Origin: Cliona cf. orientalis
Taxonomy: Eukaryota; Porifera; Demospongiae; Clionaida; Clionaidae
Direction: 5' to 3'
DNA: 64,000 nt
Assembly: GCA_963930775.1 (NCBI GenBank)
Contig: OZ005699.1
Coordinates: forward strand, 2,253,501-2,317,500
The number at the start of each line of letters is the position of its first letter. The first letter of the stretch is position 1. The notes beneath the pieces are model-generated. The model was not told where the DNA came from. It saw only the letters and a list, made by a program, of their open reading frames with translations, and did not search any database. Shown one piece after another: positions 2,013-33,826 of this stretch. A program made the position numbers and the translations under genes.

Positions 2013-4241
2013 CTAAGGATGCGCTATCTCAACTTTATCAGTAAGAAATTGCCTAGGACCAGTGCCAATACCTCCACCAACTATCATCACTTCATCAGTT
2101 GTGAAGACTGTAACAAGAGGGGAACATCGAGCAGTCGGCATATTGCTGATGATATCCCAGGAGTTAGTGGTTGGGTTGTATTTATGAACAGATGATGTGG
2201 CTTTGTGTTTTGCATCATTTCCACCAACTGCCACTAGCTCTCCACTGACAGCTGCACAGGTGGACTGGTACACTGGGACATCAGCGATTCTAAGCCACAC
2301 TGAATCGGGTGATGTTTCGCTGCATGACTGCAGGAGCTTTGTCAGTGAACAGGTCAGCACTGACTTTATCTCAGCACCACCCTTGTCAAATCCTCCCAGC
2401 ATGTAGAGCTGATCCCCACAGATGGTTGCTGATGCTTGGGAGTAGGGGTGAGGGAGGCTAGCTGCTGTTGACCAGACTAGAGTTTCAATGTCCATCACTT
2501 CCACCGTATCTAGTTGAGTCACCGTTGATAGACCACTCTTCCCACCAGCCACTATGAGGTGCTGTTTGGTGGTTACTGTAGCAGTGTTATGTCGCTCTGT
2601 TGGCATGGGTGGAAAGTGCTCCACCCAATTTCTATTTTTAAGGCTCAATAATTTGTTGTAATTATTGTCTTTACTTAGACTATCTCCACCAATACCCGTG
2701 AGGAGACCTTTGACAATTGCTAAACTGCTGTACCAGTAGGGATATTTTGGAAGCTTACTCCACTTCCGTGTAGCTGAGTCATATGAATACATTTGACCGG
2801 CATAATTCATAAAGTAAGCCACATTCGCATCCACAACAGCAGCTCCTCTAGCCATTGTATTTGGTGCACTCCCCCCCTCTCTCCATTCTCTTAATTTTCT
2901 CTCTTTTAATGGTAGAAGTGATTTTTCTTCCCCTGGCTGATCCTGTTGGAGTTGTTTCCTCCCAATTTGAGCTCTAGGTGCACGTACGCGTAGTACTATA
3001 GATGGTGGCTGGGATGGCTTTGTTTTTCGTTGTGTTTGCTGACTCAGCTGTAGCTGCTGTTGTTCCACTTGTCTCTGTGGGGTATTGTTAGTCTGCTGGA
3101 TCTCAGCTATCACTTGCTCATGTACTTCAAGCTGTTGGGTCAACCTTTGATTTTGTCTCTCCAGCTGCTTTATATGAACATCCATTGATTGAATCTCACT
3201 CTGCTGTTGCTGGTTCTCATGGTGTAGCTCTTGTAGTTGCTGAATAGTTGCTGCTTCTCTTACTTGCATTTCCCTTCTCTGTCTTTTCAGCTGGGCTATG
3301 TCATTCGGCACCCTCTCAACTTGCTCTACACTCTCTCTGTACTCTCTAGTCTCCTTGAGACCAGCCAGCCTCTGACACAGCTCCTCACTCGAAGGTCTGT
3401 CATTCTCCTGGTAGTGGAGGCAGTCCACTGCAATCGGCAAGAGACCATGACCAGGGTCAATCATATCAATGTGGTTCTTTCTTCTCTCTGGCTCTAGCAC
3501 AGGAACATCCGTCATGCCAGTTGGTGATGCAGGGAATGGGACAGTTCTAGTGCGAGGTCCAGGCTCAGGCCACAGTCGGGTGCACACTTGTATCATGATC
3601 ACACCCTCAGAGAAGCAGTCCAATTTCTTTGTGTACACTGGTGGCTCCCTCAGTGCTTCTGGAGGCATGTAGGCTACTGTTCCTGGGCACATGGTGAGAG
3701 GGGTCATGCTTGGAGCTGCACCAGCTAGCTTAGACATGCCAAAGTCTGTCACTTTAGCTCTGCTCTTAGCCATGATCAGCACATTGTTGCTGGAGAGGTC
3801 TCGGTGGATGATGTCATTGGAGTGGAGGTAGGCGACTGCTAAAGCAATGTCATGGCAAATATCCACTTGAACACAGTATGGTAGTGATCGCTGTGAGTGT
3901 TCAAGCATTTTTGTCAAACTCTCATCAAGCAGTTCCATCAGCAGCACTGGTAGTCTGGACTCAGGGTCTCTGGTCATGTCAAGGTACTGCACAATGTTTG
4001 GGTGTCGGATGCTCTCAAGAAATGCACACTCTTGTTGAAATCTCTGCATCATCCTGCCTGCTCCTGGGTCATTGGGGTCTAGGATTGTTGGGTGGAGGAC
4101 TTTAGCAGCACAGGGCAGCTGGTCACACTTGGCCTTGTAGACAGCTCCATAGGCGCCATGTCCAAGGGGTTGGCTCTTGTTGATGTGGAAATTTCGATAG
4201 CGAAAGAGTTGCTGAGCCCTAATCTGCTCAGGATTCGCCAT
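2013..4241 (-). CDS. protein kinase with coiled coil and kelch repeats (copy A)
   Basis: Single-exon gene for about 742 residues. The start is placed at the ATG beginning MANPEQIR because the second gene has the same start; the frame stays open a further 27 codons upstream. Residues about 20-290 form a protein kinase domain: glycine loop GHGAYGAV (27-34), lysine in AAK (47), HRDLSSNN (146-153), DFG (166-168) and a PPEAL segment. All catalytic residues are present and the pattern is closest to tyrosine-kinase-like kinases. Residues about 310-430 are Gln/Glu-rich coiled coil. From about 480 to the end there are kelch-type repeats (VVGG, AVGG, LGG with spaced W/Y), expected to fold as a beta-propeller that binds partners. 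No signal peptide or membrane segment is seen, so it is probably cytosolic. Its target is unknown. Confidence 0.85.
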   Translation of the reverse strand: MANPEQIRAQQLFRYRNFHINKSQPLGHGAYGAVYKAKCDQLPCAAKVLHPTILDPNDPGAGRMMQRFQQECAFLESIRHPNIVQYLDMTRDPESRLPVLLMELLDESLTKMLEHSQRSLPYCVQVDICHDIALAVAYLHSNDIIHRDLSSNNVLIMAKSRAKVTDFGMSKLAGAAPSMTPLTMCPGTVAYMPPEALREPPVYTKKLDCFSEGVIMIQVCTRLWPEPGPRTRTVPFPASPTGMTDVPVLEPERRKNHIDMIDPGHGLLPIAVDCLHYQENDRPSSEELCQRLAGLKETREYRESVEQVERVPNDIAQLKRQRREMQVREAATIQQLQELHHENQQQQSEIQSMDVHIKQLERQNQRLTQQLEVHEQVIAEIQQTNNTPQRQVEQQQLQLSQQTQRKTKPSQPPSIVLRVRAPRAQIGRKQLQQDQPGEEKSLLPLKERKLREWREGGSAPNTMARGAAVVDANVAYFMNYAGQMYSYDSATRKWSKLPKYPYWYSSLAIVKGLLTGIGGDSLSKDNNYNKLLSLKNRNWVEHFPPMPTERHNTATVTTKQHLIVAGGKSGLSTVTQLDTVEVMDIETLVWSTAASLPHPYSQASATICGDQLYMLGGFDKGGAEIKSVLTCSLTKLLQSCSETSPDSVWLRIADVPVYQSTCAAVSGELVAVGGNDAKHKATSSVHKYNPTTNSWDIISNMPTARCSPLVTVFTTDEVMIVGGGIGTGPRQFLTDKVEIAHP

Positions 4242-4451
4242 AATATTGATCATGATTATCCAATATCCAAGTGTCGTTTCGGCAACTTTAGCAGTACTAA
4301 AAGCTGTCCTTTCGTGCCACACCCACGGGTCATATTGATCATCAATAGCGGTTTATACAAGGCGCATGCGTATTTGTGCAATCTGCACGTAAGCTAACGG
4401 GATTAGCAGGGTGTGATTCACAAGACCATGATTAACGCTCGGCGCATGCGC
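4242..4451 (-). promoter_or_regulatory. kinase-kelch A upstream region with GCGCATGCG motifs
   Basis: The region upstream of the start codon contains GCGCATGCG at 4362-4370 and the full palindrome GCGCATGCGC at 4442-4451. This is the known binding pattern of NRF-1-type factors. The first ~80 bases upstream of the start are similar to those of the second kinase-kelch gene, including a shared stretch around 4318-4333, so the promoter was duplicated with the gene. The regulatory role is inferred. Confidence 0.45.
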
Positions 4452-7109: not shown

Positions 7110-9281
7110 TTATACGGTTTTTAGGAGTCTGCCTTTGAGATAGGCTATCTCAACTTTATCAGTAAGAAATTTCTGAGAACCTGTACCAATATGTCCACCA
7201 ACCACCATCATCTCATCAGTTGGGAGGATTGCAACAAGACACCTACATCGAGCAGTTGGCATGTTTCTGATGATATCCCAGGAGTCAGTGGTTGGATTGT
7301 ATTTGTGAATAGCTGATGTGGCTTTATGTTTTGAATCATTTCCGCCAACTGCTACTAGCCCTCCATTAACAGCTGCACAGGTGGACCAATACACTGGGGT
7401 ATCAGCAATTCTGTGCCACACGGAATTAGATGTTTTACTGCATGACTTCAGGAGCTTTGTCAGTGAACAGGTCAACACTAGCTCAGTCTTATCAAATCCT
7501 CCCAGCATATATAGCTGATCTCCACAGATGGCCGCTGATGCATAGGAGTAGGGGTGAGGGAGGCTAGCTGCTGTTGACCAGACTAGTGTTTCAGTGTCCA
7601 TCACTTCCACTGCATCCAATTCAATTGACATCCTCTCCCCTCCAGCAACTATGAGGTGCTGTTTAGTGGTTACTGCAGCACTAATCCTTCGTTTTGTTGG
7701 CATAGGTGGAAAGTGCTCCACCCACTTAAGAATCTGATTTTTTCCAACATCAATGCTTATCAATATGTTGACAACACTTGTATTGTTTCCACCAATAGCT
7801 GTGAGGAGACCTTTGACAACTGCTAAACTACTGTACCAGTAGGGACATTTTGGAAGCTCACTCCACTTCTGAGTAAATGAGTCATATAAATAAGTTTTAC
7901 CATCACAGTACATAAAGTAAGCCATAGTCCCATCCACAACAGCAGTTCCTCTAGATATCCCACATGGTGCATTCCCCCCATCTCTCCATTTTATGTCTTC
8001 TAATGGTAGGAATGATTTTTCATTATTTACTTCCACTGGCTGATCCCACTGGATATGTTTTGGCTTTGTGTTTTGTTTTGATTGCTGACTCAGCTGTAGC
8101 TGCAGTTGCTCCACTTGTCTCTGTAGAGTGTTGCTGGTCTGCTGGATCTCTGCTGTCACTTTCTCTTGATCTTCAAGTTGCTGATTCAACCTTTGAATTT
8201 GTCTCTGAAATCGCTTTATCCGAACAATCTCACCCTCATGTCTGTGCTGCAGTTGTTGGTTCTCATCACGTAGCTGCTGAATAGTTGTTGCTTCCTTTAC
8301 ATATACTTGCATTTCTCTCATCTGTCTTTCCAGCTGGGCAATGTCATTCTGCACCCTCTCAACTTGCTCTACACTCTCCTTGTACTCTCTAGTCTCCTTG
8401 AGACCAGCCAGCCTCTGACACAGCTCCTCACTTGAAGGTCTCTCATTCTCCTTGTAATGGAGGCAGTCCACTGCAACCAGCAAGATACCATGATCAGGGT
8501 CGATCATATCAATGTGTGTCTTCCTTCTCTCTGGCTCCAGGATGGGCATTTCAATGACTCCAGTTGGAGATGCAGGGAATGGGACAAGTTTAGTACGAGG
8601 TCTAGGCTCAGGCCACAGTCGGGTACACACTTGTATCATGATCACACCCTCAGAGAAGCAGTCCAGTTTCTTTGTGTACATTGGTGGCTCCCTCAGTGCT
8701 TCTGGAGGCATGTAGGCCACTGTTCCTGGGCACATGGTGAGAGGGGTCATGCTTGGAGCTGCACCAGCTAGCTTGGACATGCCAAAGTCTGTCACTTTAG
8801 CTCTGCTCTTAGCCATGATCAGCACATTGTTGCTGGAGAGGTCTCGGTGGATAATGTCATTGGAGTGGAGGTAGGTGATTGCTAAGGCAATATCGTGGCA
8901 AATATCCACTTGAACATAGTAGGCTAGTGATCGTTGTGAGTGTTCAAGCATTTTTGTCAAACTCTCATCAAGCAGTTCCATCAGAAGCACTGGTAGTCTG
9001 GACTCAGGATCTCTGGTCATGCCGAGGTACTGCACAATGTTTGGGTGTCGGATGCTCTCAAGAAATGCACACTCTTGTTGAAATCTCTGCATGATCCTGC
9101 CTGTTCCTGGGTCATTGGGGTCTAGGATTGTTGGGTGGAGAACTTTAGCAGCACAGGGCAGCTGGTCACACTTGGCCTTGTAGACAGCTCCATAGGAGCC
9201 ATGGCCAAGGGGTTGGCTCTTATTGATGTGAAAATTTCGATATCGAAAGAGTTGCCGAGCCCTAATCTGCTCATTGGCCAT
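7110..9281 (-). CDS. protein kinase with coiled coil and kelch repeats (copy B)
   Basis: Tandem paralogue of the gene at 2013-4241, single exon, about 723 residues from the ATG at MANEQIRA. The kinase half is nearly identical to copy A: GHGSYGAV loop, AAK lysine, HRDLSSNN, DFG and the PPEAL segment all intact. The coiled-coil and kelch halves have diverged more, including a shorter linker before the propeller. The frame is open 23 codons further upstream (MTRGCGTKG), so an earlier start is possible; the shared MAN start is preferred. The gene is head-to-head with the first deacylase gene, 391 bases away. Weaker conservation of the kelch part suggests partner recognition is what changed after duplication, but this is inference. 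Confidence 0.85.
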   Translation of the reverse strand: MANEQIRARQLFRYRNFHINKSQPLGHGSYGAVYKAKCDQLPCAAKVLHPTILDPNDPGTGRIMQRFQQECAFLESIRHPNIVQYLGMTRDPESRLPVLLMELLDESLTKMLEHSQRSLAYYVQVDICHDIALAITYLHSNDIIHRDLSSNNVLIMAKSRAKVTDFGMSKLAGAAPSMTPLTMCPGTVAYMPPEALREPPMYTKKLDCFSEGVIMIQVCTRLWPEPRPRTKLVPFPASPTGVIEMPILEPERRKTHIDMIDPDHGILLVAVDCLHYKENERPSSEELCQRLAGLKETREYKESVEQVERVQNDIAQLERQMREMQVYVKEATTIQQLRDENQQLQHRHEGEIVRIKRFQRQIQRLNQQLEDQEKVTAEIQQTSNTLQRQVEQLQLQLSQQSKQNTKPKHIQWDQPVEVNNEKSFLPLEDIKWRDGGNAPCGISRGTAVVDGTMAYFMYCDGKTYLYDSFTQKWSELPKCPYWYSSLAVVKGLLTAIGGNNTSVVNILISIDVGKNQILKWVEHFPPMPTKRRISAAVTTKQHLIVAGGERMSIELDAVEVMDTETLVWSTAASLPHPYSYASAAICGDQLYMLGGFDKTELVLTCSLTKLLKSCSKTSNSVWHRIADTPVYWSTCAAVNGGLVAVGGNDSKHKATSAIHKYNPTTDSWDIIRNMPTARCRCLVAILPTDEMMVVGGHIGTGSQKFLTDKVEIAYLKGRLLKTV

Positions 9282-9672
9282 ATTTACTGTACTGAGCCAG
9301 TTTGCAATTTCGAGTAGCACAACTCCTTTGGTGCCACACCCACGGGTCATATGATGAGGTAAGGGCTATATAGCTGTAGCTGTGAAGGCGCATGCGTTCG
9401 GTCCCCCTGAAAGCGGTCCCCCTGGACTGTCCCATAGCAACTATGGATAGTCCCCTGCCATTTATGAGAGGGGTTAGGGGCTGGGTTTCAGATATGAATG
9501 GTTATCAGTGTTAGTCTTAAGGGGTTTGTATGGCAGGGTTAGACTCCAGGGTCTGTATGGCAGGGTTAATAGTCTACAGGTTTTGTCCTGGGGGGACCAA
9601 ATATGGCGCAGTGGACAGTCCGGGGGGATCACAATTTTGGGGGGACTGCAATCAGCACAGGTACTAGCCAGT
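9282..9672. promoter_or_regulatory. divergent intergenic region, kinase-kelch B and deacylase 1
   Basis: Candidate bidirectional promoter. GCGCATGCG lies at 9388-9396, in the same position relative to the kinase start as in copy A. The middle (about 9410-9650) has inverted, C-rich/G-rich ends with a GGACTGTCC / GGACAGTCC pairing, which looks like a small inverted-repeat element inserted in the spacer. Confidence 0.45.
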
Positions 9673-18772: not shown

Positions 18773-19681
18773 TCACTGAACATAAAGCTCCAGTAGTTCA
18801 ATTAGTGTGTTTTCATTTTTTAATTTTTCATCGCCACAAATACTCACCTCTATATCATCGACTATCGGTGTAGGAATATCAACCGAAAACCAAGGGGGAG
18901 ACTTATCGGTGCAGCAGGTACCTTCGTTATCACATTGCTCACCATCCCACAACTTGTCACTGGTATATATATAGTTGTATCTATACATCTCATCCTTATT
19001 TGCGGATTCACAGAAGTACCTCTCACCTACAAATGAAGGTGGAGAGGAAGTGCCGGGAGAATCTGAACAAGGACAATTGTATATATTCGAATTGCGGTGG
19101 CTTATCTCACTCCAACCTCCGGCAAACGTCCATATGTGGTTACGAGGGCTAGAACCATATGTTACGCTTACGCCATCAACATATGCACTGTCAATTGACT
19201 CACTACCAGACTGGAATGCATCTGTACTTGCCAGTTGATAGGCAATGATCCTCCCGCACACTCTGCGATACTGACGACAGGTGGAAAACGTTTTACGCGA
19301 ACAAGCTGCAACTCGACCGCAACCTCTGATAGTATCTGCTGTGTCTGTGTATTCTGGCCATTCAACTGGGCAGTTTTGCTGTGGATCAGTCATATTAATG
19401 AAGGCAATTCGATGCCACTGACCTGGCCCACAATAATCATTTATAGCTGTCTGTTGTTGACTGTTGTTTAGTAACATATTATTGATATCATTGTTAATGC
19501 ACTCTACAGCGGCCTGTCTGACCTCATCAGATGGACAAGCGCTGGAGCTCCCTCCAGGTACGATCATAGGAGCTCTATAATCAATCCCCACGACCAGTGA
19601 TGAAGACAGCAGCAAGGCTACAGAGACAGCGAAGATGGCTTTGCTACATCTTTCAATAATATTATTATTGAAGCTGGCCAT
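18773..19681 (-). CDS. secreted Cys-rich protein, uncharacterised (intact copy)
   Basis: Single exon, about 302 residues from the ATG at MASFNNN; the upstream 16 codons are ignored because the second copy starts at the same Met. Residues about 10-32 form a signal peptide (AIFAVSVALLLSSSLVVGID). The mature part has many cysteines and recognisable blocks: DYCGPGQWHRIAFINMTD, CRQYRRVCGRIIAYQ, DGVSVTYG, HIWTFAGG, CPCSDSPG, PSFVGERYFC, LWDGEQCDN, CCTDKSPPWF and VDDIEVSICGDE near the end. I recall similar uncharacterised proteins in sponges and other invertebrates, but their function is unknown to me. It is probably exported and disulfide-bonded. An inverted, damaged copy lies at 32920-33826. Confidence 0.75.
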   Translation of the reverse strand: MASFNNNIIERCSKAIFAVSVALLLSSSLVVGIDYRAPMIVPGGSSSACPSDEVRQAAVECINNDINNMLLNNSQQQTAINDYCGPGQWHRIAFINMTDPQQNCPVEWPEYTDTADTIRGCGRVAACSRKTFSTCRQYRRVCGRIIAYQLASTDAFQSGSESIDSAYVDGVSVTYGSSPRNHIWTFAGGWSEISHRNSNIYNCPCSDSPGTSSPPSFVGERYFCESANKDEMYRYNYIYTSDKLWDGEQCDNEGTCCTDKSPPWFSVDIPTPIVDDIEVSICGDEKLKNENTLIELLELYVQ

Positions 19682-19744
19682 GTCTTCAGGGTAGGAATAT
19701 GTGAGATGTTGTGTTGTTCGATGTGTCAATTAAGTGCTAGCTAT

Positions 19745-22025: not shown

Positions 22026-22415
22026 ACAAGTATAAAAAATAATTGAATAAAATTTAAGGATGAAGTAGGGATGGCAATGCCAAAAAGTATACAAACAAGA
22101 TTTGTAGGGATAGAGATAATCACAACCACTATACATCCCTACGCTTGCTTTTTGAGTAGCATGGGAATCATAAATATTAAAAACTGACTGACAGGGAGAA
22201 CATGAATTTCTTCCATATGCAAGTCAAGAACATTCCAAGGATAGTATGTCTTGAACAAGTCAACATCAATAGGTCTGTAATAATCGAGAAAAGCAAGCGT
22301 AGGGATGTATAGTGGTTGTGATTATCTCTATCCCTACAAATCTTGTTTGTATACTTTTTGGCATTGCCATCCCTACTTCATCCTTAAATTTTATTCAATT
22401 ATTTTTTATACTTGT
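22026..22415. mobile_element. fold-back element with 127-base inverted arms
   Basis: Arms 22026-22152 and 22289-22415 are inverse copies around a 136-base centre. They contain AAGTAGGGATGGCAATGCC and TAGGGATAGAGATAATC. Parts of the arm (AAGTAGGGATG, GTATACTTTTTG-like) recur near 43005-43040, so this is a dispersed family. No coding capacity seen. Confidence 0.7.
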
Positions 22416-22850
22416 ATTATTATGAACCCTTGACCATCTCCCCAGTAGCTCCATAGTGTAATGGTGCATGTGGTAAAAGGTCGACAATAGAATGCGTACA
22501 CATCGATCGATGCTCACCCCAGAAATCATGGAGATGGCGTCTAAGATCGACTCTCAGCCTTGACAGCGACAAATTTCGATGCTTCAATCACAGAGACGAA
22601 CTCGACAGTACAGTATTCCTTCCGAACTTCAGGTTGGTCACGCTGCTGCAGTCGCGCGCGGGACAGCCCCTTATGACAATGATGCGTACTATATATAGCG
22701 CATGCGCGCAAGGCAGAGGAGGTGCGAACACTACGTAGTAGTCACATGACAAGAATGCGCGTAGCGGACATAAAGGAATGCAGAGTGCGCGTGCGCGATC
22801 AATCGTTAATCGCGATCTATGTTAAGACCGCGGGCGCGGGAGATTCCGAA

Positions 22851-24380
22851 ATGGCAGCAGGTGCAGATGACAGAGAAGATCGGTGGACTCTAACCGAATA
22901 CACAACAAGCGAAGGAGAAGTGCGTGTCTTAGCTCCAGTGCTATCGTGTTCAACCGAGGTACATGTTTACACGATTCCCAGTTTTGCCGTTGTTCAGGTA
23001 CAATTGAGGCGAATCAAGTACCAGCTTATCAAATCACTCAGTCAAGCAGTAATGACATTGGATGGTCTGATTAGGCCACTCCAAATAAATTTCCTGTTTC
23101 CCGTCCTGGAAACAACTAATGTAGTATGCGGGCGGGCGGTAAATTCCATTATTTACATAGTAGCAAGGCCTACAGGAAACACTTAAACTAACACTGGACT
23201 AAAAATCAGATTTCCAATACTAGGAAATGTGCAGTGTAGGGCAAAATTTCATGTAGACTTTTCTGAAACTGAAGGAAATTTTGCCCTATACTGTACAATT
23301 TCCTTGACATTTCCTTCAACGCAGATTGAAGGAAATGCAACTTTTTTTCTAGTGTAATTAATTATCACTCACTTGAAGCAAGTATACTACGTGTACAAAA
23401 GTAAATGCGGATATTGCATACATGCAAAAGTACTAATAATGGAAAATTTCGTGACATGCCAGAAAAGGATGCGGGCGGTGGACGGGAAACAGGAAATTTA
23501 TTTGGAGTGGCCTTAGGGATGATCTTTCATTGGATCGGCTGTATCCTGCTGAATTGTCGTTTGCTGTGCCAGTAGACTTAAATTATCCTGCTTGCTATGT
23601 GAAGGTGAGTTGGAGATAGATTTAGTAATATGACTAGCTACCTCCATGCTATGATTCATGGTCAGAGTCAAGATGCCAAGTGTATGCACTGATTCACTAA
23701 CTACACCTGCATTGGCAACCATTTAATAGTATATGACTGACCGTAATATCTTGCAGGTTGCAGACTTGGAGGAGTGTCCAACTCTTGAGCCAGATCTTAA
23801 GAAGTTTGTGCTCTTCCCAAATGATGATGAAGTTTTAGTCATTTGGGACTGGAAGTGGAGTGACTGCGATAACACACCGAATGATGATGACGATCCAGAA
23901 GAAATCACTATCATTCCAGAGACACCACCAGAACCAGAATCTGATAGTGACACTGATGCCACTGAAAATAACGGCAGCACCTTTCCGGATGAAATTGAGC
24001 ATAGAGTAACCTTTAAATGTATAGGTTGCACCAAAGAACAACCATATCAACAAGCATTAATCCGTGCTGCTTAACTACGACGCGAAGGCACCAAGGTGGA
24101 AGTTAAAGTAGAGCCAGAGCCCACAAACCCCTTCGATGCGAAGGCTATCCAAGTTAAATGTAAAGTGGATGGGGAGTGGAAAAGGATCGGCTATTTGGTG
24201 TCCGAGGTTCTAGATGAAGTTCACAAGGCGCTTAACACCAATCGTATAGTAAGTGTCGATTTTGAGTGGATTAAGCTGATAGTAGTATGGAGGACACCTG
24301 GCTGGTATGCTGGAGTTAACATTACACGAAAAGGTGAATGGTCAAAAACTATACTGATTTCACAAAGTGCTAGAACATAA
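22851..24380 (+). pseudogene. HIRAN-domain protein of the transposon, interrupted
   Basis: Exon 1 is 22851-22958 (MAAGADDREDRWTLTEY...) and exon 2 begins at 23757, in phase. An acidic segment follows (PNDDDDPEEI, EPESDSDTDATE), then FKCIGCTKEQPYQQALIRAA and a TAA stop at 24072-24074. The same frame continues with VEVKVEPEPTNPFDAKAIQV, GEWKRIGYLVSE and a terminal WYAGVNITRKGEW. This last part looks like a HIRAN domain, a small DNA-binding fold known from HLTF-type repair helicases and from some mobile elements; the domain match rests on the short P-N-P-F-D-A-K-A-I and R-I-G-Y-L pattern. The in-frame stop splits the domain from the acidic part. The intron holds a Harbinger-like element. Confidence 0.6.
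23074..23512. mobile_element. Harbinger-like element with TTA duplication
   Basis: Ends GGCCACTCCAAATAAATTTC and its complement are inverse copies over more than 30 bases and are flanked by TTA on both sides. TTA/TAA target sites and GG ends are typical of PIF/Harbinger elements. A GCGGGCGG motif is present near each end. It sits in the HIRAN gene intron, so it entered after the large transposon. Confidence 0.7.
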
Positions 24381-24448
24381 GATTACATATTAATAGGTGT
24401 TACTGAATGGTCAAAAAGTGGTGCTAGAACATTAATAGTTAATACTGG

Positions 24449-27400
24449 TCATGTTGGGTTGGCATATGAATGCTCGTTGATTATATTATTGTGATTAGAA
24501 GAATCAGAGGGGGGTGGGGGGAGCTCAACTGGGACATTGTGATACTTAGTACGAATAGACCCTGCTCCTCGTTGCACCATAGAGAGGCGACCTCCTATAC
24601 CATCTTTCACAAGCTCTCTTCTGGCTACACGTTTTTTCTTTGCGGCATTCTTTGCTGGATAGCTGAAATCCAACATTTCTCCTTCATAGAAACGCTGGTG
24701 ATGTGAGGTGTGATAAAAAAATGGCAGGTCTGGGTCCAACCTCCTGGAGAATTCCATACATGTTCTTCTCCATCCATACATAACCTAGAAAGTAGAAATT
24801 TATTCATAAGTGCCCTTATAGATCACAAAAATCCTCCATACCTTCTTGTGTGTAAAATCTTTCCCTACCACATCACGTAACACACTAAAGAAACATTCAA
24901 CGTCATCCGAGGTGGAAGCCCGTGGATGTTCCATGGGGATGTTGTTGCATCTGTTAAACTTTCGCCTCCATTCTCGACTTTCTATATTGACAAGTAGAGC
25001 AGATAGTGTCTCCCTAGTGAAGCCCCTGATATTGGTAATATCCCTGCAAGATTATTATTGTTTTAATGTATTATATTTGAGGATTTAGTGGGCATCTGCT
25101 ATAATATTACTTACTGATTGACTTCAAGGGTGCTGTAATCTGATTGTTTGTACCATGGTATAAGTTCCTCCAGTATGTACTCGATCAAATCTTGATTAAA
25201 TCTGCTTCTCTCATCATCACTGAGCCCTCTTTCATCACATGACCTTCGCCAATTTCTAATAATCTTGACATAACGAGCTTCAAATTCATAATTCTTCCTC
25301 TCCATGAAGTTGAGTACACTCAGGCTGAAAATCTGTTCAACATCAGATACTGATTGCTTTCTAGTACCAATCATGGCATGATATGAGAGCTGAACTTCTG
25401 GATCCTGTACAGCTTCCATGAATCTCTCTAGCCTCAGCTCAGCAGGACCTCCTTCTCGTAAACTTTGTGCTATTCGCTGGATTACAATGAATGTACATTT
25501 TCTTATTATTTACAATAAATATAAATATAAAAAACAGACCTTGAAAACGTGTCCTTCATCTTCACGTTCATGAAATTCCATTTCAGTTATGGGATGAACC
25601 TCCGGAACATAAAGGTGAGAGCGAAAGCTGATCCCTTTAGCTTCATATTGCTCCACTAGATATTTGTAGTGCAGTTGGGAAAGGATGGATTTCAGCTGGT
25701 CAGTCTGAGTTTCTGTTTTCCCTACATTTATTTTTTATATCGTGCATAATTTGTTTTATTGATAATTAAGTTATATACCTGGTTTCCAAGTATGAAACTT
25801 ATAGCCATGAGGAACAGTCCTTTCCCTTAACCGGGCAATGACATCGACTTCCATCGCTCCCTCAAGTTTCCATAATAAAACCTCTAATAGCACCTGCTCG
25901 GGTACAGCAGGATTCTCCCTCACTGCTTTTATCGATCCACTAGCTGTAACATTACAAGTTATGATAATAGTATACATGTAATTAGCAGTTATGCTAAATC
26001 TTACATAATATTGGAGTAAACATCTCAATCATTGGTTTGTATGATTTATTCTTGTACTGTGCCCTACTGTCTGTTCTCAATTGAAGGATAGTGAGGGGAC
26101 GTGTGCGTCCATGCCAGCGCAGACTGTTAAACTCCCCATCCGTTGTTAATCCTATGTCATATTGACAAGACACATGCATGCATGGATGATAATAATACAC
26201 TGCAAGTACAAGTGCTTACCTGCAACTTTCATATTTCTTTTTGACATTTCTTTGATTATAGCATCAGCAAATTCTCTAACCTGTTTGTCCTTCAATCCAC
26301 GAATAGGTAGACGCTGCAGGGGTAGGGCATATGGCTTACGATTCCTTGATTCTGAACTGATCATCATAACAAAAATATGTGAGGCACTTCCTCGCTGATG
26401 CTTTGATAGTGCTTTCACAAATGAGGTCAGTTGACTTTTAGCGACCTGGCGATGTTCTCAACAACTGCATTGCACCCTTCATCTGAGAGACGCTCAATCA
26501 ACACTTGCATGTCCACTATGAGCTTTCTTCCCTGCTGAATGAGCTCCTCTACTTCTCTTACTGCCCATGCAAGCTTAAAAAGAGCTGATTCTCCAGCTTT
26601 AGGTGCTTCTACCTTTGATTCGTATGAGCTCTGGGCCTTTGTAAGTGCTACAATTATTGTAATAATATAGTGCATGGGCATTAATTTATTGAATGACGTT
26701 GGTAATTATTAATTTACCTGAGTATAAAAAGTTGAGATCATCACTAACTTTGGAGCATACCACCTTCAGTTTTTCAAGTAACTCACTGTGGTTCGATGAA
26801 GTTGTCATCTGTATTTCAGCTATTGATTGGAGACGCTGTTGTATTGACGTTGAAGGTCACCATTGTTATGATCAACATCACCGCTCCATATTCCTCTGAC
26901 TGACTCCCCCAGTCCTGGTAAAATATCACACCCATCGGCCTTTATCCACCACCAGATATCAGGTAGTATCTGAGACGCTTGATCTAGTATATGAATCTAT
27001 AGATTAAATTTACCAATCAATATATGGTCATAATATTAAAATAATAATGTAAGGCCAAACAAACTTAATTACTAGTTTCTCAGGCTTTCAAATTTCAAAA
27101 CCCATGCGGGAGGCGGCTTTTTATTTTATTTTTTAATGAAAAGTGGGCGTGACGATAATGGCCACGCCCATTTTCGCTAGTGCTGCACGTGGTTGATACA
27201 CAAACTAGTGCTGAAAATACAAGTATTGAAGTCTATCCAGAGAGAATATCTAGCCTAACAATCAAGTTTAGCTTTCTATATAGTAGAGAAAAGTTTCATC
27301 AGTCGTACTAACCTTGCAAGATGACAAGATTTAGCCTGCACCAGATGACGTCATCGTCTTTGAAGAAAATGGCTAGCTAGCTGCTGGCTAAATACCACTT

Positions 27401-29029
27401 TCACGGAGACTTAAGTTGTGAGATGTCAACTAAACTGTCTCGAGATGCCGGAAAACAGTTAGTTTCATGAACTCTTTACCGTGTATATTCCAATTTTTGT
27501 CCGTTAATTAAATTAATTAGCACGTGATTGCTCACGTGAAAAATAAATAAAAAAGTCTTGCTTTCTCAAAATTTGATGCGGGCGGGCCTGAGAAACTATT
27601 AATTAACTTTGCTTGGCCTAATACCCATATTAAACCGAATACTAGTACAGACCTGAATCTCTGGAGTAGCCGTGAAGTTTCCTGTGGCAATATCCTTTTG
27701 GATTTTACGTGCAGACAATCCAGGAATATTGACACGAGCCTAGATAATCATTAAGTAATCATCATAATTGATTTGATTAACTAACTAGTCTTACATCTTG
27801 AATGGCCCATGTTGTCTTTCCCAGATGCTTTGCTGCTCCTTGTTCGACTACAGCAACACTCCAAAAAGGACCATTGTATAAGCAGCACCATTTCCCCCCG
27901 AAGTGTGAGTACATGGTCGTAAGCCAAATCTTGTAGTCCTCTGGACATTTTCCAACCTTGTGAACGTATAATAATAATATATACACATGGACCGTCATTG
28001 CCATGCACACACACACACGCACACTGACGTAAGTGGCTAAATTAATGGCATGTTTGGTGTTTGTAGGCTGCCTTTAGAATAATTACAGTCATTCAAAAGA
28101 GTCTGTTGTACTAGTGTATATAGCCTCAAATGAAATACCGGTAATTTTAATCTTACCACAGTATACAACTAACCTTTGTTAGAGTTTTAGCAGAGAAAAA
28201 CTGCACTAGGTATTCTACTAAACCCATAGGCATTCTCTTTGCAGGCATTAGTGAGTCGGTCTTGTCTAGTCTCATTGTTCCAATGACTTTTGCTAAACCA
28301 TAGACCACATTGATCCGGATACAATTTTTCAAATGGTGTGTCGCTTGTAAGAAAAGCTGTAAAAAGTCATTGGAAACCGAGATCCCCTGAGAGTGAGCAT
28401 ATGCACTGAACATTTCAGATATAATTTTAAGCCGAGCAGATTCATCAAGTTGTGACACTGCAGACTTGATTGAATGTGTGCTATCGAGTGTCCTGGATGC
28501 TGCAGGAAGATAAGATTCTGTCTGTGTCGAAGCATCTACATGGCCAGTGCACATGGAGACATCCATTTCTTCACTTGTGTTTGTCCTGCCAAAATAGTGT
28601 TCTTCAGCCAATTTGGGAGTAGCAAATTGCCTTGGATATTTGGATATGACGCGAAGGCGACATGCTCCAGCTGTGTGTGACATAGTATATTAATATTATT
28701 AACATCTGAGTATACAAGCATAATATTATGGTAGCTACAAGTTTGCATTAGTTACCTGTCCGCTTAGTAGTAGATCTTCCTGCTCTCTGAATAAAAAGTG
28801 CAGCTTCAGACCAAAATTTACTATTTTTGGAATGTGATGGCCAGACATCTTCTGGACCATGGAATAAAACAAATTGCACCAACGCCTTGTTCTCTTCACT
28901 GCTCCATGTTTCAACAGCTTTGCCTAAACCCTGCTCGTCAGAAGAGAATAACCTTCTGCGTGCAACTGGTCGGATTGGATTCCGCTTTTTATTGGCCCGG
29001 GATTTCGGTCTTCTCTTAGGAGTATCCAT
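24449..29029 (-). pseudogene. multi-exon transposon gene, Myb-like start and HPRASTSDDVE end
   Basis: About 13 exons read right to left. Exon 1 (28756-29029) is basic and then Myb/SANT-like (WSSEENKALVQFVLFHG). Next come 28174-28670, 27795-27956 (WLTTMYSHFGGKWCC), 27653-27739, 26718-26996 (WWWIKADGCDILPGLGES, GIWSGDVDH), about 26447-26648 (helical), about 26224-26408, 26010-26155 (LTTDGEFNSLRWHGRTRPLT), 25783-25942, about 25560-25720, 25120-25480 (RIAQSLREGG), about 24842-25045 (HPRASTSDDVECFFSVL) and 24449-24785 (RLDPDLPFFYHTS). I recall proteins with this C-terminal signature as repeated, unnamed families in sponge and cnidarian genomes. The DGEF and DDVE acidic residues could belong to a transposase catalytic core. 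A frame change inside the fifth exon near 26835-26850 leads to a TAG, so the copy is probably dead. Confidence 0.55.
27053..27618. mobile_element. Harbinger-like element with TAA duplication
   Basis: Ends GGCCAAACAAACTTAATTAC and the inverse GTTAATTA...CTTTGCTTGGCC pair over about 35 bases with few mismatches, flanked by TAA on both sides. GCGGGAGG and GCGGGCGG motifs lie next to the inner borders. It interrupts an intron of the transposon gene. Confidence 0.65.
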
Positions 29030-29258
29030 TGATCTGCCTGCAGCTGCAACGAGCAGCCCCGCCCACCAAATTACCGCTCAGTTGGCGCGTGCAGGTATGA
29101 GGTACGGTTGGGTACAGGGTTGTTTTACGTACAGATTAGCATAAGACAATCCTATGCACCGTTAGACGGATAGAAATCGGAACTTACGCCTATATATATA
29201 TATGGGCACGTGTATGGGCAAAAATCCGGATCACGTGATGCGTTCGCACCTCCTCTGA

Positions 29259-29500
29259 GCGCAAGGCTAGCTTTATTTATCCACGGCATTACGTAAGCCA
29301 AGAAAACACGTGAAGTTCAACCAACAGTACTTCTCAGAGAAAGTAGCGCTCAGCTTGTAATCTATTCGCTGGATACACGCGTAAGATACTCTACATATTT
29401 ACTGATTTTCAAGTCCCAGAAAGGCTCCAGCGAGGCCCTGAATTTTCTCATAATTACCTCATAGATTACACCATAGGTTTCATCATAATTACACCATAAT
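29259..29500. other. spacer between transposon and satellite
   Basis: Holds the right target-site copy and the start of a TCATAATTACCTCATA-rich stretch that introduces the satellite. No gene seen. Confidence 0.4.
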
Positions 29501-31460
29501 TACCTCATAACCACAGAAAAGTAAATTGCTACTGGGGAGATAATGAACAACTTGGAGACTACGTCCAGAGTCCCTCATGAATAAGCCGCCATAAATTCGA
29601 ACTAGGACACATTGACAAACCGCGCATGCTCCGTATACGAGTACAATGTTGGGGCGTGCGGCTTGAGCCGGTTGACCTTCACCTGCCACGTGCTCGACTG
29701 AATAGGGAAATCCCCCTGCCCTGAAAGCGAGCTCGCTAGAGAAAGCGAACTGAGAGAAACGCCATAAGGATATCGTCGGATAGTCCACGATGTCTTCTAC
29801 GCTAGGCTCGAATTCTGGGCCCCAACAAGCTTTCATGCGTGCTAAACATTTTGAAACAGTCTTGACCTTCACCTGCCACGTGCTCGACTGAATAGGGAAA
29901 TCCCCCCGAGTGCGAGCTCGCCAAAGAAAGCGAACCGAGAAAATCGCCATATCTCATCGATAGTCCACGATGTCTTCTACGCTAGGTTCGAATTCTGGGT
30001 CCCAACAACCTTTCATGCGCGCTAAACATTTTGAAACAGTTTCACAGGAATTACATCATAAGTTTCATCATAGGTTTCATCATCATTTCATCATCATTTC
30101 ATCATAATTTCATCATAGCGAGAGCCGAATTCTTTGTTTCTAATTGGGACTCTGGACGTAATGAACAACTTAGAGACTACGTCCAGAGTCCCTCATGAAT
30201 ACGCCGCCATAAATTCGAACTAGGACACATCGACAAACTGCGCATGCTCCGTATACGCGTACAATATTGGGGCGCGCGGCTTGAGCCGGTTGACCTTCAC
30301 CCGCCATGTGCTCGACTGAATAGGGAAATCCCCCCGAGTGCGAGCTCGCCAAAGAAAGCGAACCGAGAAAATCGCCATATCTCATCGATAGTCCACGATG
30401 TCTTCTACGCTAGGTTCGAATTCTGGGTCCCAACAACCTTTCATGCGCGCTAAACATTTTGAAACAGTTTCACAGCAATTACATCATAGGTTTCATCATA
30501 GGTTTCATCATCATTTCATCGTAATTTCATCATAATTACCTCATCGCGAGGCCGAATTCTTTTTTGCGAATTGGGACTCTGGACGTAATGAACAACTTGG
30601 AGACTACGTCCAGAGTCCCTCACGAATACGCCGCCATAAATTCGAACTAGGACACATCGACAAACTGCGCATGCTCCGTATACGCGTACAATATTGGGGC
30701 GCGCGGCTTGAGCCGGTTGACCTTCACCTGCCATGTGCTCGACTGAATAGGGAAATCCCCCTGCCCTGAAAGCGAGCTCGCTAGAGAAAGCGAACTGAGA
30801 GAAACGCCAAAAGGATATCATCGGATAGTCCACGATCTCTTCTACGCTAGGTTCGAATTCTGGGTCCCAACAACCTTTCATGAGCGCTAAACATTTTGAA
30901 ACAGTTTCACAGCAATTACATCATAATTTCATCATAGGTTTCATCATTATTCATCATAATTACCTCATCGCGAGGCCGAATCGATTTGTTAATTGGGACT
31001 CTGGACGTAATGAACAACTTAGAGACTACATCCCGAGTCCCTCACGAAAAGTAGCCGCCATAAATTCGAACTAGGACACGTCGACGAACTGCGCATGCTC
31101 CGTACACGCGTATATTGGGGCGCGCGGCTTGAGCTGGTTGACCCGAACGTGACCTCCACCTGCCATGTGCTAGACTGAACAGGGAAATCCCCCCGAGTGC
31201 GAGCTCGCCAAAGAAAGCGAACTGAGAAAATCGCCATATCTCATCGAAAGTCCACGACGTCTGCTACGCTAGGTTCGAATTCTGGGTCCCAACAACCTCT
31301 CATGCGCGCTAAACATTTTGAAACAGTTTCACAGCAATTACATCATGAATTTCATCATAAATTTCATCATAAGTTACCTCATCGGTTTTCATCATCATTT
31401 CATCATCAATTACTCATCGCGCGGCCGAATTCTTTTTTGCGAATTGGGACTCGGGATGTA
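29500..31460. repeat. satellite array, ~430-base units
   Basis: About five tandem units, two of them shortened near 29860. Landmarks repeat in order: GACTCTGGACGTAATGAACA, then the inverse ACTACGTCCAGAGTC, CCGCCATAAATTCGAACTAGG, GAGCCGGTTGACC, CCGAGTGCGAGCTCG, GTCCACGATGTCTTCTACGC, AACATTTTGAAACAGT, and a tail of TTTCATCAT repeats. Each unit therefore starts with a short hairpin. Open frames in it, such as MAIFSVRFLWRARTRGDFP, recur with the unit and are not supported as genes. Confidence 0.8.
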
Positions 31461-32919: not shown

Positions 32920-33826
32920 ATGGCCAGCTTCAACATTGAAGTATGTAGCAAAGCCTTCTTCACCGTCTCTGTGGCCTTGCTGCTGTCTTCATCACTGGTT
33001 GTGGGGATTGATTGTAGAGCTGCACTGAGTCCTATGATCGTACCTGGAGGGAGCTCCCGTATGTGTCCATCTGATGAGGCCAGACAGGGTGCTTTAGAGA
33101 GCATTAGAAATGATATCAAAATGCTACTAAATAACAGTCTACAACGGACAGCTATAAATGATTATTGTGGGCCAGGTCAGTGGCATCGAGTTGCCTTCAT
33201 TAATATGACTGATCCACAGCAAAACTGCCCAGTTGAATGGCAGGAATACACAGACACAGCAGATACTATCAGAGGTTGCATGCGGTCGAGTTGCAACTTG
33301 CTCACGTAAAATGTTTTCCACCGGTCGTCAGTATTCCAGAGTGTGCGGGAGGATTATTGCCTATCAACTGGCGAGTACAGATGCATTCCAGTCTCGTAAT
33401 GAATCAATTGATGGTCCGTACGTTGATGGCGTAAGTGTGACGTATGGCCACCCTCGTAACCACATATGGACATTTGCCGGAGGTTGGAGTGAGATAAGTC
33501 ATCCCAATTCAGATATAGTCAATTGTCCTTGTTCAGATTCTCCCGGCACTTCCTCTCCACCTTCATTTGTTGGTGAGAGGTACTTCTGTGAATCAGCAAA
33601 TAAGGATGAGATCTTCAGAAATAATTTTTTATATACCAGTGACAAGTTGTGGGATGGTGAACAATGTGATAACGAAGGTACCTGCTGCACTGATAAGTCT
33701 CCCCCTTGGTTTTCGGTTGATATTCCTACACCGACAGTCGATGATATAGAGGTGAGTATTTGTGGCAATGAAGATTTAGCAAATGAAAACTCACCGATTG
33801 AACTACTGGAGATTTATGTTCAGTAA
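32920..33826 (+). pseudogene. secreted Cys-rich protein, inverted copy with frameshift
   Basis: Same protein as at 18773-19681, in the opposite orientation, about 80-90% alike. It starts MASFNIEVCSKAF with a signal peptide (VALLLSSSLVVGID) and reads well to DTIRGC. There, near 33280-33284, four extra bases (ATGC within TTGCATGCGG) shift the frame and a stop follows 9 codons later. The remainder continues in another frame to IEVSICGNE...LLEIYVQ and TAA with all blocks kept (DGVSVTYG, HIWTFAGG, LWDGEQCDN). It is probably a recent pseudogene. A sequencing error or editing could also explain a 4-base change. Confidence 0.75.

Follow-up and report, generated by a model that had tools for sequence, protein, structure and literature searches.

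The closest described relatives in working of the element reported here are the transposons of the P superfamily. The catalytic residues of P transposase are given as D230, D303, D339 (in a DxxH motif) and E531 in the available part of PMC8230255, and the C/DxxH motif is also found in MuDR (PMC3706591). HIRAN domains are known from a different context: that of HLTF binds the 3′-OH of single-stranded DNA, for which HLTF requires N90 and N91, and HLTF needs the domain to clear Cas9 from cut ends (PMC11237066, available part). In Cliona cf. orientalis a stretch of 64,000 nucleotides (contig OZ005699.1, positions 2,253,501 to 2,317,500), called the window below, holds a transposon in which a gene with a HIRAN-like domain is paired with a convergent multi-exon gene, here called the DDVE gene. 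We consider it likely that this is a divergent, P-related cut-and-paste transposon, that the minus-strand DDVE gene encodes its transposase, and that the HIRAN protein acts in the same complex, most likely as an end-handling factor.

Inverted ends, target duplications and empty sites

The window copy is bounded by exact 16-bp inverted ends at 22714-22729 (+) and 29242-29257 (−). With up to two mismatches allowed the 16-mer occurs in the window only at these two element ends, against a mean of 0.00 in 100 shuffles, which confirms the ends described in the original prediction. The host's own genome (217 Mb, 149 contigs) was searched, and the 16-mer was found seven times, as three complete pairs including that of the window and one single end. 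Apart from the window copy there are two complete ones, L008 (6021 bp) and L009 (5523 bp), which align with it block by block at 96.6-100% identity. Between L008 and L009, 9 of 5522 aligned bases differ, so that these copies have moved recently. Both are flanked by perfect 9-bp duplications, TAGTAAGGC and AACGCGTGG. At the single end, on contig C18 (L010), 84 bases match only, at 87%, and no further element resulted.

The boundary features of the window copy are as follows.

22705..22713, + strand: left 9-bp target duplication CGCGCAAGG, 8/9 identical to the right copy; supported by empty sites
22714..29257, unstranded: complete extent of the transposon copy, which is defective; 6544 bp, or about 5.5 kb once the nested inserts are subtracted; delimited by its ends and by comparison with L008 and L009
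22714..22729, + strand: terminal inverted repeat CAGAGGAGGTGCGAAC, HIRAN side
22742..22749, + strand: subterminal TCACATGA, candidate transposase binding site
29231..29238, − strand: subterminal TCACGTGA, candidate transposase binding site
29242..29257, − strand: terminal inverted repeat CAGAGGAGGTGCGAAC, transposase side
29258..29266, + strand: right 9-bp target duplication AGCGCAAGG; supported by empty sites

The flanking GCGCAAGG repeats noted earlier are present, but their length of 8 bp was not correct; because other copies carry 9-bp duplications, that of the window is read as 9 bp with an 8/9 match. When the length of the repeat was tested in eight perfect copies it was exactly 9, never longer or shorter, and the window copy gave no exact repeat, its first base differing.

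More distant copies were found with the last two DDVE exons, which gave 38 matches in 26 places at identities from 99 to 37%. Two more families, each a pair 97-99% alike (L051/L052 and L053/L054), end in CAGAGGAGGTACGAC or CAGAGGAGGTRCGACA, with one L052 end starting CACAGG. The 9-bp duplications are perfect at L052 and L054, 8/9 at L053 and 7/9 at L051, and a copy on contig C14 also has a perfect one. The check for other copies with target duplications that had been proposed thus yields L008, L009, L052, L054 and the C14 copy, all at other sites and all with perfect 9-bp repeats. Altogether the duplication could be read in 13 copies (nine perfect, three at 8/9, one at 7/9), and its sequence varies among them.

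A box [TC]CAC[AG]TG lies just inside the ends. At the transposase end it starts at position 20 in 7/7 elements and at the HIRAN end at position 28, 29 or 39 in 7/7; the seven scored elements represent three families and hence at most three independent cases. The C14 copy has CACRTG at the places corresponding to both boxes. In the short elements L057-L059 the box was not seen in 70 bases of each end.

Across the genome the motif of the ends, CAGAGGAGGTRCGA, has 61 occurrences and its reversed control one. This count and the shuffles reject a chance inverted repeat. Among 18 small loci around CAGAGGAGGTRCGA ends (L057-L074) a duplication was found in five, perfect in L058, L059, L061 and L070 and 8/9 in L067; these five look like non-autonomous elements of 268-426 bp.

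The flanks also point to insertion. Joined with one copy of the duplication, the flanks of the window copy form part of a high-copy repeat: of 1975 candidates in all, 40 places were scored, and each of the 40 matched along the entire 228 bases. Six such empty sites were aligned and all are continuous through the junction. For L052 the flanks correspond to a different repeat, with matches spanning the junction in dozens of places, mostly at 80-88% identity; three of these were aligned. Among the six sites of the window type one, on contig C4 (C4:1468446-1468465, L094), reads TATATATAGCGCAAGG-CAG-AGCGCAAGGCTAGC, with a 9-bp target copy on each side of CAG; relative to an empty site it has an additional copy of the duplication and the element's first three bases. 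This 20-mer occurs once in the genome. Its letters are as expected of an excision footprint and the site is a possible candidate for one. A site on contig C11 has another small change at the same place.

Shared inverted ends at different sites, a duplication of fixed length and the empty sites identify the element as a cut-and-paste transposon, so that copies, 9-bp duplications and empty sites together support the transposon call of the original prediction. Some observations fit less well. In 13 of the 18 small loci a duplication was not seen: for 11 a second end with a duplication was not found within about 500 bases, six of these sharing one flank and thus representing one repeat, and in L057 and L072 both ends are present but a duplication in register was not found. 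Compared to the simplest empty site, the left flank of the window copy is longer by about 8 bases. The candidate footprint is known from one locus only, C4:1468446, and the same letters could also arise from a 13-bp tandem duplication minus one T.

The two genes and the state of the window copy

Two convergent genes lie inside the element, HIRAN on the plus strand and DDVE on the minus strand, as had been described. Twelve exons of the DDVE gene were located by similarity, in line with the multi-exon structure proposed earlier, and the joined model from L009 has 1042 residues. The DGEF and HPRASTSDDVE motifs are both present. In the window copy the exons are:

28757..29029, − strand: transposase exon 1, basic start and Myb-like segment
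28174..28671, − strand: transposase exon 2
27795..27956, − strand: transposase exon 3
27653..27739, − strand: transposase exon 4
26716..26996, − strand: transposase exon 5, D1 motif KADGCD...WSGDVD; two frames in the window copy
26221..26648, − strand: transposase exon 6, P-like RNase H segment; two frames in the window copy
26006..26152, − strand: transposase exon 7, D2 motif TTDGEFN
25780..25944, − strand: transposase exon 8
25540..25719, − strand: transposase exon 9, DxxH motif EREDEGHVFK
25114..25464, − strand: transposase exon 10, first residues excluded
24842..25042, − strand: transposase exon 11, with HPRASTSDDVECFFSVLRD
24452..24784, − strand: transposase exon 12, C-terminus

The Myb-like start noted earlier is matched only weakly, below the cut-off (PF00249, E-value 0.017, in a relative; PF13921, 0.08, in the window family). 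The central part weakly resembles the N-terminal RNase H region of P element and THAP9 transposases. Two full-length models match PF21787 (TNP-like_RNaseH_N) with E-values of 0.0008 and 0.0023, and individual core pieces match it weakly in 9/9 relatives (best 1.5e-4). The core was also aligned by hhalign with three P-like open reading frames of the same genome, picked from 127 PF21787 matches found genome-wide at E ≤0.01. This gave an E-value of 6.7e-5, with TTDG aligned with the P-like D2, compared to 0.11-0.22 for reversed profiles.

The original prediction had read the acidic residues as standing in for a DDE core. The gene is better read as having a DDE layout, with D1 in KADGCD suggested by motif resemblance, D2 in TDGEF by the profile and E, judged by its position, in DDVE; in the L009 model these are D361, D588 and E913. 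Since D1 is outside the hhalign alignment and the C-terminal half is unmatched, motif and order are the grounds for placing D1 and E. Conservation is consistent with this layout: D1 is D in 7/7 rows covering that position, GD[VI]D is kept in 8/8 rows, DxxH is present in 9/9 rows covering it, and the E of DDVE in 10/10 rows of alignment A3. In three loci outside A3 (L028, L033 and L036) the DDVE motif varies.

The P relationship and the DDE layout must be weighed against several facts. The gathering score of PF21787, 24.6 bits, is not reached by the two full-length models (20.2 and 18.7 bits), the match spans only profile positions ~60-129 of 137, and the nine matching members are related, so that 9/9 does not amount to nine independent tests. 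The best hhalign match has a probability of 64% with D1 outside the aligned part, and the C-terminal half gave no match with the P-like open reading frames (E-value 0.33). No relatives of the transposase were found among PDB sequences: profile searches gave none with alignment A1, coiled-coil or low-level matches with A2 (best 0.011) and one match at 0.5 with A3. D2 is D in the window family alone. It is N in 8/9 rows of alignment A2 and in 6/6 further exons, some of them near-copies of A2 rows, and N at this position should harm metal binding.

The substitution thus extends to all 14 exon sequences from relatives, and the E two positions on is kept in 15/15. L052 and L054, both of N families, carry perfect duplications and hence have moved recently. 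Between L051 and L053 the differences at codon positions 1, 2 and 3 number 162, 100 and 340 over 567 codons, and the codons differ at 228 of 378 identical residues, a pattern which indicates that the N families are under coding constraint. Either N works together with the kept E two positions on, or a D-type enzyme moves the N families through their near-identical ends.

Other database matches did not lead further. SAM_KSR1_N (0.0013) and PRONE (0.0019) in the Pfam scan of core pieces, and T2SSL (0.0037) and DUF3127 (0.0044) in a second Pfam scan, each concern one member and were dismissed as chance. Among viral contigs 57 pattern matches included no relative.

The HIRAN gene of the window copy has the following features.

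22851..24380, + strand: HIRAN gene; first-exon ATG near 22851 and HIRAN-exon start near 23757 placed by eye, start and splice sites predicted
23988..24377, + strand: HIRAN domain region, with an in-frame TAA at 24072-24074 in the window copy

The HIRAN exon of the window itself matches PF08797 with an E-value of 0.011, below the cut-off, but of the group's HIRAN open reading frames 10/11 match this model (best 1.6e-7), so the domain recognized earlier is borne out. Those beside the DDVE genes at C1:33095263, C6:7566789 and C2:9337033 pass the gathering score. In the motif NPxD the N is kept in 11/11 and the D in 10/11 sequences. Helicase or RING domains gave no match at E ≤0.1 in the HIRAN open reading frames. 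Three observations are less favourable: where HLTF has the first N of its NN pair these sequences have T, S, E, Q, D or H, a search of the HIRAN profile against PDB gave one match at 0.14 and no HIRAN chain, and a single-sequence fold model was poor (predicted local distance difference test, pLDDT, 58.8) and was not used as evidence.

The pairing of the two genes is recurrent. A convergent HIRAN open reading frame lies beyond the 3′ side of the DDVE gene in 20/24 loci, with gaps of 221-495 bp; in the other four (L028, L032, L034 and L036) it was not found in the 3 kb examined. A genome search with one HIRAN domain gave 30 matches in 26 places. Within 2 kb, 21/26 HIRAN places have a DDVE partner and 21/26 DDVE places a HIRAN partner, with a chance expectation of ~0.0005 per place, and the linkage persists across families that are ~50% identical in protein. 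The HIRAN gene is therefore a regular partner, as had been suspected, and not a passenger of one copy. The opposite possibility, that DDVE genes are single-copy host genes unlinked to HIRAN, is ruled out by the 26 DDVE places, 21 of which are HIRAN-linked. The five places on each side that have no partner within 2 kb count against a strict pairing; in one such case, at the L034 place, the partners are 6.4 kb apart.

HIRAN matches are more widespread than the element. At E ≤0.1 the genome has 149, of which four by eye lie within 2 kb of a DDVE place; this is an undercount because the Pfam model misses many members of the group. Other matches include L049 1345-1749, L044 1312-1764 and L043 1351-1785, and their neighbours, judged by eye, include one pogo/Tigger-like transposase, one Myb/trihelix-like and one reverse transcriptase-like open reading frame. 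Other elements may have acquired HIRAN as well.

The window copy itself is dead or dying. Compared to L008 and L009 it has two 10-base gaps, in transposase exons 5 and 6, each of which is split across two frames, and the in-frame TAA at 24072-24074 interrupts its HIRAN exon. In L008 and L009 the HIRAN exon is open and exons 5 and 6 are in frame, with small breaks elsewhere in each. The window copy also contains two inserts that resemble miniature inverted-repeat transposable elements (MITEs) and are missing from L008 and L009:

23073..23513, unstranded: MITE-like insert within the element; inverted ends of 34 bp, bordered left and right by TTA (by eye)
27052..27619, unstranded: MITE-like insert within the element; inverted ends of 34 bp (91%), bordered left and right by TAA (by eye)

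The TTA or TAA beside them suggests that they are PIF/Harbinger-type elements. Immediately left of the transposon, at 22026-22415, there is a 127-base perfect inverted repeat with a 136-base spacer, which is hairpin- or MITE-like, and a tandem array with units of ~180 and ~428 bases occupies 29672-31359 on the right. Farther away, two related long open reading frames at 2013-4352 and 7110-9365 (−) fuse a protein kinase to kelch repeats. Two others, at 18773-19729 (−) and 33209-33826 (+), are alike by eye; the former has no Pfam match at E ≤0.001. An Rfam scan of the window gave no match.

Proposed mechanism and rival explanations

The mechanism that we favour takes the ends, the 9-bp duplications, the empty sites, the spread of copies, the coding constraint and the pairing with HIRAN as its direct support. 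The minus-strand gene would produce a transposase that begins with a weakly Myb-like segment and has an RNase H core with long insertions, in which the residues D1 (KxDxCD), D2 (TDGEF), DxxH (EDEGH) and E (DDVE) form the active site; catalysis and DNA binding are suggested here from the sequence. This protein probably recognizes the CAGAGGAGGTRCGA ends together with the TCACRTG boxes just inside them, excises the element and reinserts it with a 9-bp stagger. The HIRAN protein, encoded on the plus strand, most likely joins the transposase complex and handles the ends. It may hold, protect or hand on the 3′ ends, or help to remove the transposase afterwards. In P-type transposition the element is left with 3′ single-stranded tails. 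Because HLTF's HIRAN domain binds the 3′-OH of single-stranded DNA and such tails could serve as its ligand, handling of 3′ ends is proposed; we regard it, with moderate confidence, as the most economical guess.

The element could instead belong to the P superfamily as an ordinary, though divergent, representative, with HIRAN as mere cargo that has no part in transposition. The PF21787 matches in 9/9 relatives and a D2 in register with the P-like open reading frames favour P membership, as does the abundance of P-type genes in this genome, with the 127 PF21787 matches mentioned above. Against an ordinary P element are duplications of 9 bp, not 7-8 bp, and the missing P domains. Among the Pfam matches listed at E ≤10, from which the program's filters drop most weak ones, there was no THAP domain, with weak Myb matches instead, and none of the models that we take to be those of the P GTP-binding and C-terminal RNase H domains; the latter two absences also speak against the P affinity assumed in our own proposal. 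A THAP domain need not be present in every P element. Idle cargo is hard to reconcile with a HIRAN gene that stays linked across families only ~50% identical in protein, and we find this combination possible but rather doubtful. HIRAN could also serve the element without a direct role at its ends, by shielding it from the host through anti-silencing or steering of repair. Accessory genes of this kind have a precedent in the TET/JBP dioxygenases, which are carried by several DNA transposon superfamilies in fungi and may act on silencing (PMC12730594, available part), and the many HIRAN matches in places other than DDVE loci (only four of 149 near one, an undercount) also favour this reading. 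The reported activity of HLTF's HIRAN is, however, binding of 3′ ends, a structure that the transposon itself makes, and a purely protective role seems unlikely to us.

An element of the MuDR/MULE type would account for the length of the duplication, as MULEs also make duplications of ~9 bp, and for the C/DxxH motif, which MuDR shares (PMC3706591, as above). Since no MULE or MuDR model is among the Pfam matches listed whereas a P model does match, this origin is very improbable. That two unrelated elements or host genes came to lie between chance inverted repeats can be regarded as refuted: judged by eye, the majority of the HIRAN matches in this genome have no DDVE gene next to them, as such an assembly would have it, but the reciprocal linkage, ends common to several families, flush 9-bp duplications and empty sites leave it practically no probability. 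A bolder version of the favoured mechanism is that the elements form an undescribed, superfamily-level DxxH branch, with D2 changed to N (NGE) in most families and HIRAN as a dedicated 3′-end partner of the transpososome; we put this forward tentatively, as a less probable option.

If the proposed pairing is correct, a selfish element would have adopted a domain used for fork remodelling and end recognition in HLTF/Rad5 and kept it as a permanent companion of its transposase. The element would then offer a small natural system for studying how a 3′-end binder affects excision, end joining and transposase release, and stand-alone HIRAN genes of animal genomes could derive from such a source. 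The change of D to N at the second catalytic position in recently moved families presents a sharp and testable puzzle about the DDE active site.

Comparison with known systems

Several DxxH groups share features with the DDVE-HIRAN element. Kolobok, hAT, MuDR and Dada transposases have a C/DxxH motif between D2 and E and make long duplications, but no Pfam match to their models was listed. Their target sites also differ from the 9 bp found here, being TTAA for Kolobok, 6-7 bp for Dada and ~8 bp for hAT (available parts of PMC9587614 and PMC3706591). Thus hAT was rejected because no match was listed, including the hAT dimerisation model, and the duplication is 9 and not 8 bp; Kolobok because the 9-bp sequence varies and is not TTAA; and MULE because no profile match was listed. 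Kolobok lineages are similar in having varied accessory proteins, such as nucleases and a RecQ helicase, HIRAN being unnamed in the available part of PMC9587614. PIF/Harbinger elements resemble ours in having two genes and a Myb-like DNA-binding part (PMC12730594, in its part on Nuwa). They usually make 3-bp duplications and carry Myb in a separate protein (same source), and no Harbinger model was among the matches listed.

The HIRAN proteins share the NPxD...AI motif with HLTF/Rad5. They differ in being short stand-alone proteins with an acidic stretch. A literature search by titles and the starts of abstracts, with Repbase outside its scope, listed no eukaryotic transposon with HIRAN.

The nearest system is the P superfamily (Drosophila P element, Galileo, THAP9). 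Weak PF21787 matches in 9/9 relatives, a D2 in register, DxxH, a long stretch from DxxH to the last acidic residue, and cut-and-paste movement with a long target duplication are common to both. The differences are a duplication of 9 bp versus 7-8 bp (PMC4168063, available part), a weakly Myb-like start in place of THAP, and distances of ~227 residues from D1 to D2 and ~153 from D2 to DxxH in the L009 model versus 73 and 36 in P (PMC8230255, as above). To these are added the lack of a match to the GTP-binding and C-terminal models, N at D2 in relatives and a second gene, HIRAN. The statement that the element cannot be placed in hAT, MULE, KDZ or P was thus partly wrong, in view of the weak PF21787 matches in 9/9 relatives and of the DxxH motif of the hAT/P/MuDR/Kolobok/Dada group. 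In its working the element is P-like, but we keep it out of the P superfamily, with which its 9-bp duplication, its lack of the other P domains and the N at D2 disagree, and out of hAT, MuDR and Kolobok as well. We regard it as a divergent P-like lineage within the DxxH group that has a weakly Myb-like start and an accessory HIRAN gene.

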